DNA of 64,000 nt from positions 1 through 64,000 of the forward strand of contig JAFSMU010000004.1 of assembly GCA_017447775.1 (NCBI GenBank), written 5' to 3'. Of the stretch, positions 6,138 to 13,334 are shown piece after piece. A program made the position numbers and the translations under genes. The notes beneath the pieces were generated by a model. It searched no databases. It was not told the DNA's origin and saw only the letters and a list, made by a program, of their open reading frames with translations. This DNA comes from Clostridia bacterium. GTDB taxonomy: Bacteria > Bacillota > Clostridia > Oscillospirales > CAG-272. Numbering within the stretch: the stretch's first letter is position 1; the number at the start of each line of letters is the position of its first letter.

Positions 6138-7223
6138 ATGCGTATTATCGAGCAGCCTAAAACGATAATCGACAACCCGGACTCGATTTTCGGGTATTTT
6201 GCGTGGCCGACGGTGGCAAGGCTTTATGACGGCACTCTCGCGGCGGTTTGTTCGGGATTCCGCCTGCGCCACATCTGCCCGTTCGGGAAAGCCGTGATAT
6301 CGTACAGCCGCGACGACGGCAAAACGTGGACTCGCCCGGCAGTCGTCATCGACACGCCCCTCGACGACCGCGACAGCGGCATCTGCGTCAACGGAAAAAG
6401 AGTCATTGTGACGTCTTTCAACAACACGCCACATAACCAGCGCGCGTGGCTTGAAGGCAACATCAAAAAGGGCGACACAAGCCCGTCGCTGAAGCTTATG
6501 GAAGCGTATTTCGGGCTTTATCCCGAAAACGTGTGCGAAAAATATCTCGGCTCGACGTATAAGATCAGCCGCGACGGAGGATATACTTTCGGAGAGGTGA
6601 AAAGATCCCCCGTTACAAGCCCCCACGGGCCGTTTACGGCAAAAGACGGGCGCGTTATATGGGTAGGTCGGGTGTTTGACGAAAATCAGGAAAATAAACC
6701 GACCGAGATCGCCCTTGCCGAGCTTGACGGTGACGAAAACTTCGTCATAAAATCGTACATCGCGCCGTGCGTTGATGAGTTCGGCGTCGGCTTTGCGTGC
6801 GAGCCGCACGCGATAGAGCTTCCCGACGGTAGGATTATCGTCGCCATCCGCGTTCAGCGATTTGACGAGCATCCGCTCTTCACCGTTTATATCTGCGAAT
6901 CGTCCGACGGAGGCGCGACGTTCACCGAGCCGAGAATGCTCATCGACAGGCTCGCCGGGGCGCCGCCGCACTTTATGCTTCACTCGTCGGGCGCGCTCGT
7001 GATGTCATACGCCTGCCGAAACGGCAATATGGGTATTCGCGCGATCATCAGCCGCGACGGCGGCAAAACCTTCGGCGATGAAATTAAGCTTACCGAGAAC
7101 GCGCCGTCAAGCGACCTCGGCTATCCCGCGACTGTCGAAAGAAACGACGGCAGCCTTCTTACCGTGTGGTATGAGCGCGGAAGCGACGTCGCCGTCATAA
7201 AGCAGACGGTCTGGGAGATATAA
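6138..7223 (+). CDS. BNR/Asp-box repeat protein (sialidase-like beta-propeller)
   Basis: A 361-aa predicted six-bladed beta-propeller of the sialidase superfamily. Four Asp-box motifs (S-x-D-x-G-x-T-F/W) are visible: SRDDGKTW, SRDGGYTF, SSDGGATF and SRDGGKTF. There is no signal peptide or membrane segment, so the protein should be cytoplasmic, unlike secreted exo-sialidases. The start is backed by AAGGAGG. It follows the U32 gene by 15 nt and is last in the + strand run. Substrate unknown; a neuraminidase, another glycoside hydrolase or a non-catalytic propeller are all possible. Confidence 0.75.
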   Translation: MRIIEQPKTIIDNPDSIFGYFAWPTVARLYDGTLAAVCSGFRLRHICPFGKAVISYSRDDGKTWTRPAVVIDTPLDDRDSGICVNGKRVIVTSFNNTPHNQRAWLEGNIKKGDTSPSLKLMEAYFGLYPENVCEKYLGSTYKISRDGGYTFGEVKRSPVTSPHGPFTAKDGRVIWVGRVFDENQENKPTEIALAELDGDENFVIKSYIAPCVDEFGVGFACEPHAIELPDGRIIVAIRVQRFDEHPLFTVYICESSDGGATFTEPRMLIDRLAGAPPHFMLHSSGALVMSYACRNGNMGIRAIISRDGGKTFGDEIKLTENAPSSDLGYPATVERNDGSLLTVWYERGSDVAVIKQTVWEI

Positions 7224-9598: not shown

Positions 9599-10090
9599 AT
9601 GGAAACATTCGGTCAAAGATTTCAAAAATTGAGAAAAGCAAAAGGACTTACCCAGGAGGACATTGCAAACAAAATAAACATCAGCGCTCAGGCGGTATCA
9701 AAATGGGAAAACGATCTCACAAGTCCCGATATATCGGTGCTTGCGGAGCTATCGGATATGCTTGGCGTTACGCTTGACGAGCTTCTCGGCAAGGACGCGC
9801 CGAAAACCGCCGAGGTATTGCCGCCCGATGAGCGGCGGGACATCTCCAAAATGATGTTCAAGATGACCGTCGACAGTTCAGACGGCGACAAGGTCAGGAT
9901 AAATTTACCGATGACACTTGTCAAAATTTTCACGGAAAGCGGAGCCGGAATGCCCGATATCAACGGCAAGAATACGCTCAAAAATATCGACTGGAATCAA
10001 GTTCTCATGCTTGTGGAGCAGGGCGTGATCGGCGAGATTATGAGCGTTGACAGCGCGGACGGCGACCGCGTGCGCATTGTGGTCGAATGA
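9599..10090 (+). CDS. XRE-family transcriptional regulator with C-terminal beta domain
   Basis: A 163-aa regulator. Residues ~5-60 are a Cro/CI-type helix-turn-helix (FGQRFQKLRKAKGLTQEDIA, then AQAVSKWEND). After a short linker, the C-terminal ~75 residues form a separate domain ending MSVDSADGDRVRIVVE, similar to the small SHOCT/DUF2089-like domain seen in LiaX/YvlB-type proteins. The neighbouring 77-aa protein ends in the same pattern. ACGGAGG precedes the ATG. The upstream three-copy dyad array suggests autoregulation. Targets unknown. Confidence 0.8.
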   Translation: METFGQRFQKLRKAKGLTQEDIANKINISAQAVSKWENDLTSPDISVLAELSDMLGVTLDELLGKDAPKTAEVLPPDERRDISKMMFKMTVDSSDGDKVRINLPMTLVKIFTESGAGMPDINGKNTLKNIDWNQVLMLVEQGVIGEIMSVDSADGDRVRIVVE

Positions 10091-10091
10091 T

Positions 10092-10325
10092 ATGAAAATA
10101 AAAATATACGATGCGGAAAGCAAGAAAAATTTGATTTTCTTCTTCCCCACGAGCGCCGTAAAATCTCGTTTTCTTTGGCGACTTGCGGGAGCGGAGTATG
10201 AAAAGTATCGTCTGCTTTCAAAGAAGATGTATAAAAACCTCAAAGCGTACATAAAAGAAAACGGACACTTTGACTTTGTCGACATCGACAGCAATGACGG
10301 TGATAAAATCAAAATCAGAATTTGA
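10092..10325 (+). CDS. Small protein with the same C-terminal domain as the upstream XRE regulator
   Basis: A 77-aa protein starting at the ATG one base after the XRE stop, so translation is probably coupled. An upstream in-frame start at 10047 would overlap the regulator and is not favoured. The sequence (start KIKIYDAESKKN, end DIDSNDGDKIKIRI) looks like a free-standing copy of the regulator's C-terminal domain: a short beta strand, a helical middle (YKNLKAYIKENGHFDFVD) and a closing DGDKIKI strand. No signal peptide or membrane helix. It may bind the regulator or share its ligand; inference only. Confidence 0.65.
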   Translation: MKIKIYDAESKKNLIFFFPTSAVKSRFLWRLAGAEYEKYRLLSKKMYKNLKAYIKENGHFDFVDIDSNDGDKIKIRI

Positions 10326-10369
10326 AAAAATACCGCATCGGGGGGCACGCCGACCGATGCGGTATTTTT
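10326..10369. terminator. Bidirectional terminator, 16-bp perfect stem
   Basis: Arms at 10326-10341 and 10354-10369 pair perfectly around a 12-nt loop, with A- and T-runs on either side. It ends the XRE operon and lies directly beyond the stop of the dpaB remnant on the other strand. Confidence 0.85.
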
Positions 10370-10371
10370 CA

Positions 10372-10496
10372 TTTATTCCATCACGGGCTGTATCTGCCGC
10401 CCTGCAAAAGCCGACATTATCGTTTCTCCCACGCGGTCAAAATCGCATACAAGCGAGTGCGGCTTGCCCCTCGGGTCGTCCTACGCCATCGGCACA
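10372..10496 (-). pseudogene. Decayed duplicate of the dpaB 3' end
   Basis: These 125 bp align without gaps to 12018-12142, the last ~40 codons of dpaB plus its stop, with 7 mismatches (94 % identity). On the - strand it reads VPMA-stop-DDPRGKPHSLVC... to the same terminal QPVME and TAA stop. A Gln codon of the intact gene has become TAG (10481-10483), and Met and Lys codons have changed conservatively. There is no start and no upstream part of dpaB, so it cannot make protein. With the intact copy it forms a direct repeat around the FAD oxidoreductase gene. Confidence 0.9.
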
Positions 10497-10510
10497 GTAA
10501 TGAAAATAAT

Positions 10511-10541
10511 AAATTCGGCGTGGATTTTCCGCGCCGAATTT
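10511..10541 (-). terminator. Terminator of the FAD oxidoreductase gene
   Basis: A 10-bp stem (10511-10520 with 10532-10541) begins right at the stop codon of the - strand gene and is followed by an A/T-rich run. Confidence 0.65.
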
Positions 10542-11921
10542 TTATATCTGTTCGGTTTTTACATCATTTCTGTCAACCATTCCGCCGTGAAATCTTACCT
10601 TGCGGCGAATTTTTTCAACGTCGGCGTATTTGAACGCTTGCCCGTATGACAACGCCTCCGTCGCGGCTATCCCCGCAGCCTCGCCCATCGCAAGACAAGG
10701 AGCCATAACGCGAACAGGCCCAAGCACCTCGCGCTCGACGCTGATACATCTGCCGGAAACGATAAGGTTGTCCGCTTCTTTAGGCAAAAGACAGCGGTAT
10801 GGTATCTGTGTGTACGGAGAGGCGGTCTCAACTCCGTTCAGCGGCTGCTTGCTCGGTTTTTTGGGATCGGGCATATCCCAATGATATGCAGAAAGCGCGA
10901 TCCCGTCGTCAAAATCTTTTCCGTTTATCAGATCATCGACACTCAGCACGTATTCGCCGCAAAGGCGGTACGTTTCGCGTATTCCGATCACGGGCGCGAT
11001 CTGCCGTATCTTTGCGTTTGAAAAACCCGGAAAATGCTCTTTCATGATTTTCAGAAGCTCAAAGCTTTCTTTTCTGCCGTCGATGATGCCTTTTGTAAGA
11101 GACTTAGCGTCTGTGCCGTCAATACTAACCTGACGGATGGTGTTTATCATAAAAACGTCGGGGCGCGTCATTTGAACGGAAATGAAAATTTCATAAGGAA
11201 ATTTCCAAACGCCGCTCTCTTTTAGCGGATTAATCAGATTTCTGAATCTGACGTCGCGCGTTTTGCGCATATATTCCGTAAGTTCATCGGCGTCAACATC
11301 TTCCACGTGCATTTCAAGCGATGCGGCCGCCATGCCTCCATCATCGTCCCCCTTTTTCATCGAACAGCCAAGCATACGGCATATATCGGCGTCGCCCGTC
11401 GCGTCGACGAAATATTTTCCGATTATCGCATACAGCCCGCTTTTGTTGTGAACGACGACTGCGGATAGGTGCCCGCCCTCGCTTATCACGTCAACGATGT
11501 CTGTCATATATAACAGCTCAACGCCGTATTCCGCCGCCATTTCTTCGAGGACGAACTTCATCTTTTCCGCGTCAAAAACAAGCCCCGCCCCGAGTAGCGG
11601 ATACCAGCCCTGCGGTGGAAGCTCGCGGTCGACAGTGTGAACGTCAACTGCGCCGCCCGCTTTAAGCAGTCTCGCTTCAAGCTCCGAATAAAGTCCGCCG
11701 ACGCAGGTGTAAAGCGTGTCGCTATCAAAACGGCGCGCGCCGAGCATATGATTTACCATCGCCTTCGTGCCTGTTCCGCCGAGGCAGCCGTCGCGCTCGA
11801 TAAGGAGCGTCCGCGCGCCCTCTCGCGCCGCTGCGCACGCCGCGCCAAAGCCGGCAAATCCGCCGCCGCACACTATGACGTCGTATGTTCCGATCCGATT
11901 TATTGCTTTTTCGTATTTCAT
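10542..11921 (-). CDS. FAD-dependent oxidoreductase (FAD_oxidored family)
   Basis: A 459-aa flavoprotein of the type found in anaerobic carbohydrate catabolism clusters (PF12831-like). The N-terminal Rossmann fold shows the dinucleotide motif VCGGGFAGFGAACAA at residues ~16-30, followed by LLIERDGCLGGTGTKAMVNHML. A second FAD contact (FVDATGDADICRMLG) is mid-protein, and the C-terminus has NLIVSGRCISVEREVLG and AMGEAAGIAA. No signal peptide. GAGG lies 9 nt before the start. Its substrate cannot be predicted. It is unrelated to dipicolinate synthesis, yet it sits exactly between the intact dpaB end and the decayed copy of that end, which suggests insertion or an unequal duplication. Confidence 0.85.
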   Translation of the reverse strand: MKYEKAINRIGTYDVIVCGGGFAGFGAACAAAREGARTLLIERDGCLGGTGTKAMVNHMLGARRFDSDTLYTCVGGLYSELEARLLKAGGAVDVHTVDRELPPQGWYPLLGAGLVFDAEKMKFVLEEMAAEYGVELLYMTDIVDVISEGGHLSAVVVHNKSGLYAIIGKYFVDATGDADICRMLGCSMKKGDDDGGMAAASLEMHVEDVDADELTEYMRKTRDVRFRNLINPLKESGVWKFPYEIFISVQMTRPDVFMINTIRQVSIDGTDAKSLTKGIIDGRKESFELLKIMKEHFPGFSNAKIRQIAPVIGIRETYRLCGEYVLSVDDLINGKDFDDGIALSAYHWDMPDPKKPSKQPLNGVETASPYTQIPYRCLLPKEADNLIVSGRCISVEREVLGPVRVMAPCLAMGEAAGIAATEALSYGQAFKYADVEKIRRKVRFHGGMVDRNDVKTEQI

Positions 11922-11993
11922 ATCCGACCTCGCAGTTTTTTCTTTCCAAATAGATTATATCACAGAATTGAAAAAAATGAAAGATGAAAATTA

Positions 11994-12015
11994 AAACCCC
12001 GCTTTCGCGGGGTTT
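11994..12015 (-). terminator. Terminator of dpaAB
   Basis: A 9-bp stem AAACCCCGC/GCGGGGTTT with a 4-nt loop, immediately after the dpaB stop on the - strand. Confidence 0.85.
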
Positions 12016-12017
12016 AT

Positions 12018-12142
12018 TTTATTCCATCACGGGCTGAATCTGCCGCCCTGCAAAGGCGGACATCATCGTTTCTCCCACGCGGTCAAAATCGCATACAAGC
12101 GAGTGCGGCTTTCCCTTCGGGTCGTCCTGCGCCATCGGCACA
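12018..12142 (-). repeat. Intact copy of the 125-bp repeat (3' end of dpaB)
   Basis: Partner of the decayed copy at 10372-10496, in the same orientation. 118 of 125 positions are identical. The similarity stops at the same base on both sides (a T/A difference just past the stop codon; the GGCACA edge inside the gene). Confidence 0.9.
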
Positions 12143-12579
12143 AAAAAGACGTTTTTGCGCTTCATCAGCGTCCCGATATTGTCAAGATTTGCCGAGAGCG
12201 CGTCGTTTGTCGCAAGCGCTATCACAAGCGGGCGATCACAGCGCAGATGCGCCTTCGCCGCCATTGTAACGGGCGTGTCGGTGATGCCCGAGGCTATTTT
12301 TGCAAGTGTATTTCCCGTGCAGGGGCATATCACAAGTATGTCAAGCGGCGACTTCGGCCCGAGCGGTTCCGCGTCGACTATCGTGTGGATTATCTTGCGC
12401 CCGCACAAATTTTCAACGGTGTTTTTGATGTCCTCGGCCTTGCCGAAGCGCGTGTCGGTGCCATATACCGCGTCGCTCATTATCGGCTGAACGGAATTGC
12501 CTTCGGCGCAAAGGCTACGAAGCACCTTCAACGAGCGCTCAACGGTGCAAAACGATCCGCAAAGTGCGTATCCTATCAT
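12019..12579 (-). CDS. dpaB: Dipicolinate synthase subunit B
   Basis: Flavoprotein-fold subunit (SpoVFB) of the enzyme making dipicolinic acid in the mother cell for export to the forespore core. The 186-aa length is typical. It starts GYALCGSFCTVERSL and contains the flavoprotein-type ICPCTGNTLAKIA and MAAKAHLR stretches. Its start overlaps the dpaA stop (ATGA), so the pair is translationally coupled. The last 40 codons recur as a pseudogene fragment 1.6 kb away. Confidence 0.95.
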   Translation of the reverse strand: MIGYALCGSFCTVERSLKVLRSLCAEGNSVQPIMSDAVYGTDTRFGKAEDIKNTVENLCGRKIIHTIVDAEPLGPKSPLDILVICPCTGNTLAKIASGITDTPVTMAAKAHLRCDRPLVIALATNDALSANLDNIGTLMKRKNVFFVPMAQDDPKGKPHSLVCDFDRVGETMMSAFAGRQIQPVME

Positions 12580-13334
12580 TTGAATATTTCTCCTTTTAGT
12601 ATGTCATATACGGCGTCCCCCAAAGCGTATCCCGCTTGGCGCGGCGCCGTCTTACCCGGAAGTCCGGGGGCGAAAATAAACTTCCCGCCGAGCAGGCGGC
12701 GATCGTCTTCGTCAAAGCCGTACGGCGCCGACGCAAGCTCGATGACGTACCCGCCGATCTTCAAAACGTTTACCGTTGGCGCGGGGACGGTATTCACAAC
12801 ACAGTCAAACCCGTCCTCAAAATCGGCAAAATCTTTTGCGCGGCAAATCTTTTCCGCTTCGGCGCGCGCCTCGGCACGCCGCGCAAAAACGGTAACGTCG
12901 CCGCCGAGAAACGTCAGCTTCTCCGACAGGCTTTTGCCTATTCTGCCAAAGCCCAAAACGGCGATTTTTGCCGACGATACAGAAAACGGCCGCTCGTTTA
13001 TCATTATCCCGACCGCTCCCTCAGCTGTCAGCTCCGCGTTCTTTTTGACGTATTCACCGTTTTTTGAATAGTCGAAAAACGGCAGCGGCACGGCATATTT
13101 TTCCGCCGCGCCCGGCCCTATCACCGCCGCGGGCGAAAGCGATTTTATAAGCTCGTTTGTGTCGATCCGCCCACGCGGCGTCGACGTTGACGCTGAGGCG
13201 TTTGGCGGCAAAACGATCACGGCGCCCGCCTTTTGTTCAAGCGTTGCATACACGCCGCGGGATAATAGTCTGATCACCGCATATTCCGAGCGAGCGTCCG
13301 CGTTTATAACTGAAACAATTGTCTTTTCGTTCAT
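12576..13334 (-). CDS. dpaA: Dipicolinate synthase subunit A
   Basis: Dehydrogenase-like subunit (SpoVFA) that oxidises the dihydrodipicolinate-derived intermediate. A Rossmann motif VLGFGRIGKSLSEKLTFLG lies in the second half, and the PGLPGKTAPRQAGYALGDAVYDIL stretch at the C-terminus is diagnostic when read in two parts. At 252 aa it is shorter than the ~295-aa Bacillus protein; the N-terminal domain is the compact part. AGGAG precedes the ATG. A GCATATAATG sequence at 13372-13381 on the - strand resembles a SigK/SigE -10, but no convincing -35 was found. Confidence 0.92.
   Translation of the reverse strand: MNEKTIVSVINADARSEYAVIRLLSRGVYATLEQKAGAVIVLPPNASASTSTPRGRIDTNELIKSLSPAAVIGPGAAEKYAVPLPFFDYSKNGEYVKKNAELTAEGAVGIMINERPFSVSSAKIAVLGFGRIGKSLSEKLTFLGGDVTVFARRAEARAEAEKICRAKDFADFEDGFDCVVNTVPAPTVNVLKIGGYVIELASAPYGFDEDDRRLLGGKFIFAPGLPGKTAPRQAGYALGDAVYDILKGEIFK

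Follow-up and report, generated by a model that had tools for sequence, protein, structure and literature searches.

The window (the whole stretch of 64,000 nucleotides from a Clostridia bacterium that was analyzed here) contains dpaB on its minus strand. Along this strand, a dpaA-like gene is followed by dpaB, a hairpin, a gene for an FAD-dependent oxidoreductase (FAD gene), a further hairpin, a second dpaB 3’-end, and another hairpin. A small convergent gene on the plus strand (10092-10325) closes the series after the hairpin at 10326-10369. The features and their positions are:

12576-13334, minus strand: dpaA-like gene (dipicolinate synthase subunit A), the upstream partner of dpaB; matches to NCBIfam DpsA and spore_dpaA, below the cut-offs
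12019-12579, minus strand: intact dpaB, 186 aa; NCBIfam PRK08305 (260 bits, cut-off 156) and spore_dpaB (230.7, cut-off 229)
12018-12142, minus strand: proximal repeat copy, the 3’-end of the live dpaB, which putatively arrived with the insert; gap-free alignment with 7 mismatches, both changes derived in this copy being synonymous
10497-12142, minus strand: putative inserted segment of 1,646 bp, from the repeat spacing and the empty site in the congener G001
11994-12015, minus strand: terminator-like hairpin 3’ of the live dpaB, unrelated to the hairpin 3’ of the decayed copy
10542-11921, minus strand: FAD-dependent oxidoreductase gene (PF12831, Pfam E 1.1e-96), 459 aa, the putative cargo of the insert
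10511-10541, minus strand: symmetrical terminator-like hairpin 3’ of the FAD gene
10372-10496, minus strand: distal repeat copy, the putatively displaced, decaying ancestral dpaB 3’-end, from the third base of codon 146 to the stop codon plus 1 nt
10481-10483, minus strand: in-frame TAG (codon 151) of the displaced end
10326-10369, no strand: hairpin directly 3’ of the displaced end (inverted repeat), placed like the hairpin after dpaB in the G001 alignment
10092-10325, plus strand: small convergent gene, the putative ancestral downstream neighbor of dpaB, with a homologue directly 3’ of dpaB in G001

The protein encoded by the convergent gene ends ...DSNDGDKIKIRI; a longer ORF of this gene, 10047-10325, had no Pfam match.

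An FAD gene between two copies of the dpaB 3’-end

The initial annotation had reported that 10372-10496 and 12018-12142 align without gaps and with seven mismatches. This was reproduced: at a spacing of 1646, the copies differ at exactly 7 positions over 125 bp and their alignment has no gaps. The same pair was retrieved as the longest direct family in a repeat search (137 nt, 91%). Against the 124-nt dpaB end, 117 of 124 positions were identical in the observed ungapped match, and no more than 53 of 124 in the best match from 200 mononucleotide shuffles of 10301-12000. The repeat block starts at the third base of codon 146 and stops about 1 nt beyond the dpaB stop codon, and on either side of it only scattered matches were found. 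The terminators 3’ of the two dpaB stop codons differ from each other.

The stop codon noticed earlier in the distal copy was located at codon 151, where the displaced copy has TAG, dpaB has CAG, and the congeners G001 and G003 have CAA or CAG. The designation as a decayed partial duplicate is appropriate for 10372-10496, but not for 12018-12142, which is the end of the live dpaB. This gene is full-length, lacks an internal stop codon, and scores above the NCBIfam cut-offs with an end that the insert appears to have supplied. A search of the window’s own genome yielded two dpaB matches only, dpaB itself and the displaced end, and no second dpaB 5’-part. As annotated, the FAD gene lies with its own terminator between the copies (gene 10542-11921, hairpins at 10511-10541 and 11994-12015), and 45 nt separate its stop codon from the junction 10496/10497. 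The putative insert would thus contain, in this order, the new dpaB 3’-end, a terminator, the FAD gene, a second terminator, and 14 bp.

Fourteen ORFs of at least 60 aa overlapped the interval by more than one base. Pfam matches were obtained for the FAD gene and dpaB, while the 12 other ORFs had no match at E 0.01; at this threshold, the earlier statement that no integrase or transposase is visible holds for the interval, and a recombinase was not found either. Attachment arms at the insert were not recognizable by eye, and the insert does not stand out in base composition. Elsewhere in the window, the translation of 6138-7223 resembles, by eye, a sialidase or BNR-repeat family protein.

An empty site in a congener

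A comparison of the dpaAB 3’-flank in close relatives had been suggested in the initial annotation, and it revealed an empty site. The congener G001, the DpaB of which is 84% identical, has a hairpin behind dpaB and, behind this, a convergent homologue of the window gene 10092-10325. When the 5’-part of the window dpaB and the displaced end were joined, they aligned with G001 through dpaB into the convergent gene; the G001 contig ends just past the start of this gene. Because of this alignment, we regard 10372-10496 as the ancestral place of the dpaB end, and therefore the insert would be 10497-12142, including the end that dpaB now uses. The displaced end lies in direct orientation at the far border of the insert and adjoins the ancestral flank. 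Three congeners were compared (G001, G002, and G003), and the empty site was found in G001 alone: G002, with a genome that is 63% complete, had no dpaB match, and in G003 other genes lie 3’ of dpaB, a transporter by eye.

The comparison with G001 shows that dpaB contains about 1.65 kb of additional sequence at codon 146, which supplies the last 40 codons and the stop codon. This insertion with replacement of the gene end, which is based on one empty site in one congener, is well supported, and the native dpaB end appears to be displaced beyond the FAD gene as a pseudogene fragment.

The seven differences between the copies were polarized with G001 and G003. Two arose in the live copy, both synonymous. 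Of the four that arose in the displaced copy, one is nonsense, two are missense, and one is synonymous; the polarity of the remaining difference is ambiguous. The coding block is 94% identical between the copies, and the longest identical run is 47 nt. An alignment of the two copies had also been proposed for estimating their age; over 124 sites it gave 7 differences between the copies, compared with 20 and 23 between the copies and G001. From these distances, the two ends were nearly identical at the time of the event and belonged to one lineage. The counts of polarized changes are small, but they are in line with a live gene kept by selection next to a fragment that drifts.

Distribution of the FAD-dependent oxidoreductase

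The FAD protein had a match at E <= 1e-40 in 138 of 395 genomes of the family, the window’s own included, with at most four candidates scored per genome. Close relatives were found, among the matches listed, in 5 of the 394 other family genomes (identities of 78, 61, 60, 58, and 58%). The next match by E-value was 36% identical, and none of the further matches listed exceeded 39%. No match at E <= 1e-40 was obtained in the congeners G001, G002, and G003. The nearest relative (78%) belongs to G485 (MAG Tb.RUG.188, contig JAEEKG010000031.1), where the gene lies downstream of a GDSL-type hydrolase gene; no dpaB match was found in this draft genome. G727, G684, G633, and G737, which also carry FAD relatives, have one dpaB match each, in G727 and G684 on a contig different from that of the FAD gene. 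Among the matches listed, no close FAD orthologue was seen beside dpaB elsewhere in the family, and a donor with the FAD gene directly after the dpaB stop codon was not seen.

A viral contig collection contained no relative of the FAD protein, and a genome contig collection contained two, the G485 contig (78%) and a Lentisphaerae contig (45%). A tblastn search with DpaB matched five phage and four plasmid records, once each, with 97-99% of dpaB covered.

Other interruptions of dpaB in the class

Four dpaB scans were performed with overlapping samples of 97, 394, 395, and 393 genomes, of which 79, 338, 327, and 311, respectively, had a dpaB match, single paralogue matches included. Weak second matches were visible only in the genomes that were re-queried (63, 22, and 20, plus 3); in the family scan, these were the listed genomes that had at least two matches or whose best match did not reach 1e-60. 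Among the two-match genomes that were opened, none had another full dpaB, element, and displaced end on one contig; many two-match genomes of the order and class scans were outside the re-query, such that another displaced end may be missed. Many of the re-queried second matches comprised dpaB codons ~68-131 in frames of about 400 aa, which we take to be CoaBC-type paralogues.

Several candidates for dpaB insertions were rejected. The pieces lay at contig ends in G522, G619, G657, G581, G623, G667, G443, G272, and G776, at contig positions 2-3 in G515, G587, and G591, and at contig positions 1-2 in G108, G284, and for one of two pieces in G101. In G500, dpaB contains a run of N, and in G328 it has a frameshift. 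In addition, G903 has stop codons inside dpaB, G179, G227, G586, G538, and G499 have partial matches, G542 has two full matches with equal scores, and G635 has three full matches on three contigs.

The survey indicates repeated hits of serine-recombinase elements on dpaB, with breaks at about six positions across the class, about five of them in addition to the break in G086. The recombinases were retrieved with a profile based on four of their sequences, and the 12 that were scanned, counting one beside the 3’-piece of G1096 and two in G086 (see below), have the Resolvase and Recombinase domains in Pfam. The drafts of G105, G1108, G1096, G913, G860, and G879 have 4-7% estimated contamination, which makes single cases less certain.

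In G105, dpaB is present in three pieces on two contigs (L068 5438-5527, L069 3409-3597, and L070 4202-4504), with breaks near codons 103 and 126 and a serine-recombinase gene adjoining each piece. Codons 1-3 are missing from the first piece, which begins directly behind a recombinase gene. Perhaps three elements have entered this one gene of 186 codons, in a draft with 7% estimated contamination. In G919 and G1108, dpaB is broken near codons 107-112 with a serine-recombinase gene adjoining; the two G1108 pieces are on different contigs. Four genomes of one family, G913, G860, G817, and G879 (L106-L109), have a break near codons 88-92, with a serine recombinase adjoining. In G913, G860, and G817, the two halves are separated by 2.9-4.0 kb, and in G879 only the 5’-half was found; the intervening element is perhaps shared and old. 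In G1096, dpaB is full-length, and a different contig carries an additional dpaB 3’-part of different sequence (codons 107-184) beside a serine recombinase (L101 7639-7872 and L102 3185-3733; 5% estimated contamination).

A 92-kb provirus contig (IMGVR_UViG_2775506840_000002, L119 10001-10333) has only dpaB codons 2-112 in the 20-kb stretch examined and is a candidate prophage in dpaB. A weak, decayed match to dpaB codons 139-171 was also found outside dpaB in G523 (L078 110-208, E 5.9e-4), a genome of the same genus as the nearest FAD relative; this match may be due to chance.

An element at codons 145-146 of dpaB

G086 belongs to the same order but to a different family; its dpaB is split at codons 145-146 by an element of about 8.8 kb (L031 5159-16842). 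This element carries genes for a large serine recombinase with Resolvase, Recombinase, and zinc-ribbon domains, for MobA/MobL, and for a TraG-like protein. Both halves of dpaB meet the element in the T run of codons 145-146, where the left one ends and the right one starts again. The border in the window is within about 3 nt of this exchange point. The two are not base-identical: the G086 exchange must lie within three bases, one of which is retained in the displaced copy. If junction positions are assumed to be uniform, which is crude, the chance of lying within 3 nt is 1.2% for the G086 site and about 7.5% for any of the six break sites. The G086 dpaB also lacks codons 1-3, and another serine-recombinase gene lies upstream. 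The window’s own genome has two neighboring serine-recombinase matches (G000:C26 23845-27322), which are about 30% identical to that of G086.

Several dpaB 3’-ends in one genome

In G835, the dpaB 5’-part runs, at codon 152, into a sequence arm. Three different dpaB 3’-ends were found at three places, each behind an identical 29-nt arm, and two further copies of this arm run straight into the other arm (L097, L098, L099, L100, L113, and L115). The three ends differ pairwise by 33-36 bases over 39 codons, three of which belong to the arm. Of these differences, 18-19 are at third positions, which are thus in excess; 9-12 codons differ non-synonymously, and the reading frames are open. No serine recombinase was found in the first four of these stretches with the profile search. 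The arrangement suggests that one attachment site received more than one insertion and that several dpaB ends coexist, and it looks like island accretion at about codon 152 of dpaB. By eye, genes around one of the ends have a CBASS-type defense look.

Discussion

The window insert can be compared with several known systems. The borders of the G086 element (codons 145-146) and of the window insert lie no more than about 3 nt apart, but the G086 element is about 8.8 kb in size, encodes a serine recombinase, MobA/MobL, and a TraG-like protein, and splits dpaB, whereas the window insert restores the gene. Cis-mobilizable elements (CIMEs) are att-flanked remnants without a recombinase that are mobilized by the recombinase of a related element. 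The window insert resembles them in that cargo without recombination genes is flanked by direct repeats at the end of a target gene; the repeats would be putative att sites.

The closest layout is that of prophage e14 in icd of E. coli. According to excerpts of PMC11148124, the incoming DNA provides the last 54 codons of icd, and the native end is displaced as icdC, with a duplication of 165 bp, 12 exchanges, and an intact frame upstream; an excerpt of PMC6379469 gives 163 bp for this duplication. As far as these excerpts describe it, the two cases share insertion into the 3’-part of a host gene, an incoming in-frame end, and a native end displaced as a partial copy. The displaced ends are also similar in length and divergence, with 12 exchanges over 165 bp in icdC versus 7 mismatches over 125 bp in the dpaB end. 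In contrast to e14, for which the excerpt of PMC11148124 names the putative integrase gene intE, the dpaB insert has only 1.65 kb, one cargo gene, and no recombinase, and its target is a sporulation gene.

The same target gene is used by the vfbin element, which lies in spoVFB (dpaB) of Bacillus weihenstephanensis (excerpts of PMC10747680, PMC6957869, PMC4191935, and PMC5595907), and elements of the skin, gin, and SPbeta type have the same class of target, sporulation genes. As these excerpts present them, such elements split their gene and are excised during sporulation by serine recombinases, whereas dpaB of the window is uninterrupted and no recombinase is present. In the open-licence literature, we found no report of a gene-end-restoring insertion in dpaB, vfbin in Bacillus spoVFB as the only dpaB-interrupting element, and, for dipicolinate synthase together with a serine recombinase, only a study of Clostridium difficile sigK.

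We tentatively favor, with a little less than even confidence, a site-specific integration that restored the gene end, the recombinase having been lost later or having acted from elsewhere. A circular mobile DNA carrying a dpaB 3’-end would have recombined at the codon-146 site of dpaB. The gene would have stayed intact because the incoming end replaced the native end, as with e14 in icd. That the FAD gene is the sole cargo would be due to later loss of the recombinase and the other element genes, or to a recombinase acting from elsewhere, and selection would have kept the live end while the displaced end drifted. We prefer this reading because of the empty site in G001, the block bounded by codon 146 and the stop codon, the different terminators, the polarized changes, and the patchy occurrence of the FAD gene. 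Further reasons are the G086 element within about 3 nt of the border, the other serine-recombinase breaks in dpaB, the G835 ends, and the shared layout with e14 in icd; by this analogy, one event would explain both borders.

Site-specific entry is weakened by the lack of a recombinase gene and of recognizable arms, with only 45 nt between the FAD stop codon and the junction, by the G086 junction not being base-perfect, by the roughly 7.5% of positions that lie within 3 nt of one of the six break sites, and by the serine recombinases of the window’s own genome being only about 30% identical to that of G086. A second full dpaB with an element and a displaced end on one contig was also not seen among the genomes opened. 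As the ends were nearly identical at the event and much closer to each other than to G001, the reading also needs an element adapted to the window’s lineage. The initial annotation had considered an event that copied the 3’-end of its target, possibly by an integrating element. The first part is supported by the empty site, the block ending at the stop codon, the different terminators, and the patchy FAD gene; for the agency of an integrating element, the border close to a serine-recombinase site speaks in favor and the missing recombinase against.

The chief rival, which we consider serious and quite possible though less probable, is homologous entry, in which a dpaB-FAD fragment or circle of the same lineage recombined in dpaB. 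This could have been a single-crossover (Campbell) integration of a circle with the 125-bp dpaB end, or a homology-facilitated illegitimate recombination that joined the far end at codon 146; the latter process is described, in an excerpt of PMC3240628, for three competent species and for conjugation in E. coli. Neither a recombinase nor a later deletion would be required, which suits the minimal insert, and near-identical ends are what a donor of the same lineage would be expected to bring. However, the donor must have had the FAD gene directly after the dpaB stop codon, and none was seen; the nearest FAD relative, in G485, has its GDSL-type hydrolase context and no dpaB match. Homologous entry also leaves the near-coincidence with the G086 site to chance.

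The initial annotation had also offered a tandem duplication of a segment with the dpaB end, the intervening part of which was later replaced by the FAD gene. Near-identical ends at the start would follow from such a duplication, but the sequences past the two stop codons have no relationship to each other, in contrast to 94% identity in the coding block, a second dpaB 5’-part was not found in the window’s own genome, and at least two events are required; we consider this course improbable. A misassembly is still less probable: the window’s own genome is a draft of 35 contigs, but the copies differ at 7 sites with no identical run above 47 nt, the junction 10496/10497 joins sequences without overlap, and the decayed copy shows plausible drift. 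That the FAD gene was ancestrally beside dpaB and was lost in the relatives, with the repeat being incidental, is hardly credible, as dpaB of G001 directly adjoins the convergent anchor gene, G001, G002, and G003 have no match at E <= 1e-40, and only 5 of 394 genomes have close relatives of the gene among the matches listed.

With regard to the favored site-specific integration, the insert fits a reduced remnant or cargo moved in trans; because the recombinase is missing, it cannot be filed in any integrating family. The kind of event is already known. For its enzymology, the site-specific route is our tentative choice, and we judge the homologous one somewhat less probable.

A more far-reaching idea, which we regard as speculative and rather doubtful, is that the 3’-half of dpaB is a standing acquisition site in Clostridia, with recombinases recognizing codons ~146-152 and cargo coming with a spare dpaB end. 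If this were true, genes or islands could accumulate there and sporulation would survive; the window would represent a minimal example, with one gene and the recombinase in trans, and G835 a larger one. With the repeated hits of serine recombinases on dpaB, the choice of attachment sites in a developmental gene can be tested in many species. For the window insert itself, it can be asked in a natural setting whether cargo that lacks a recombinase is able to use sites belonging to resident elements. In this locus, a sporulation gene would have gained foreign cargo without being lost, its own end having been replaced.
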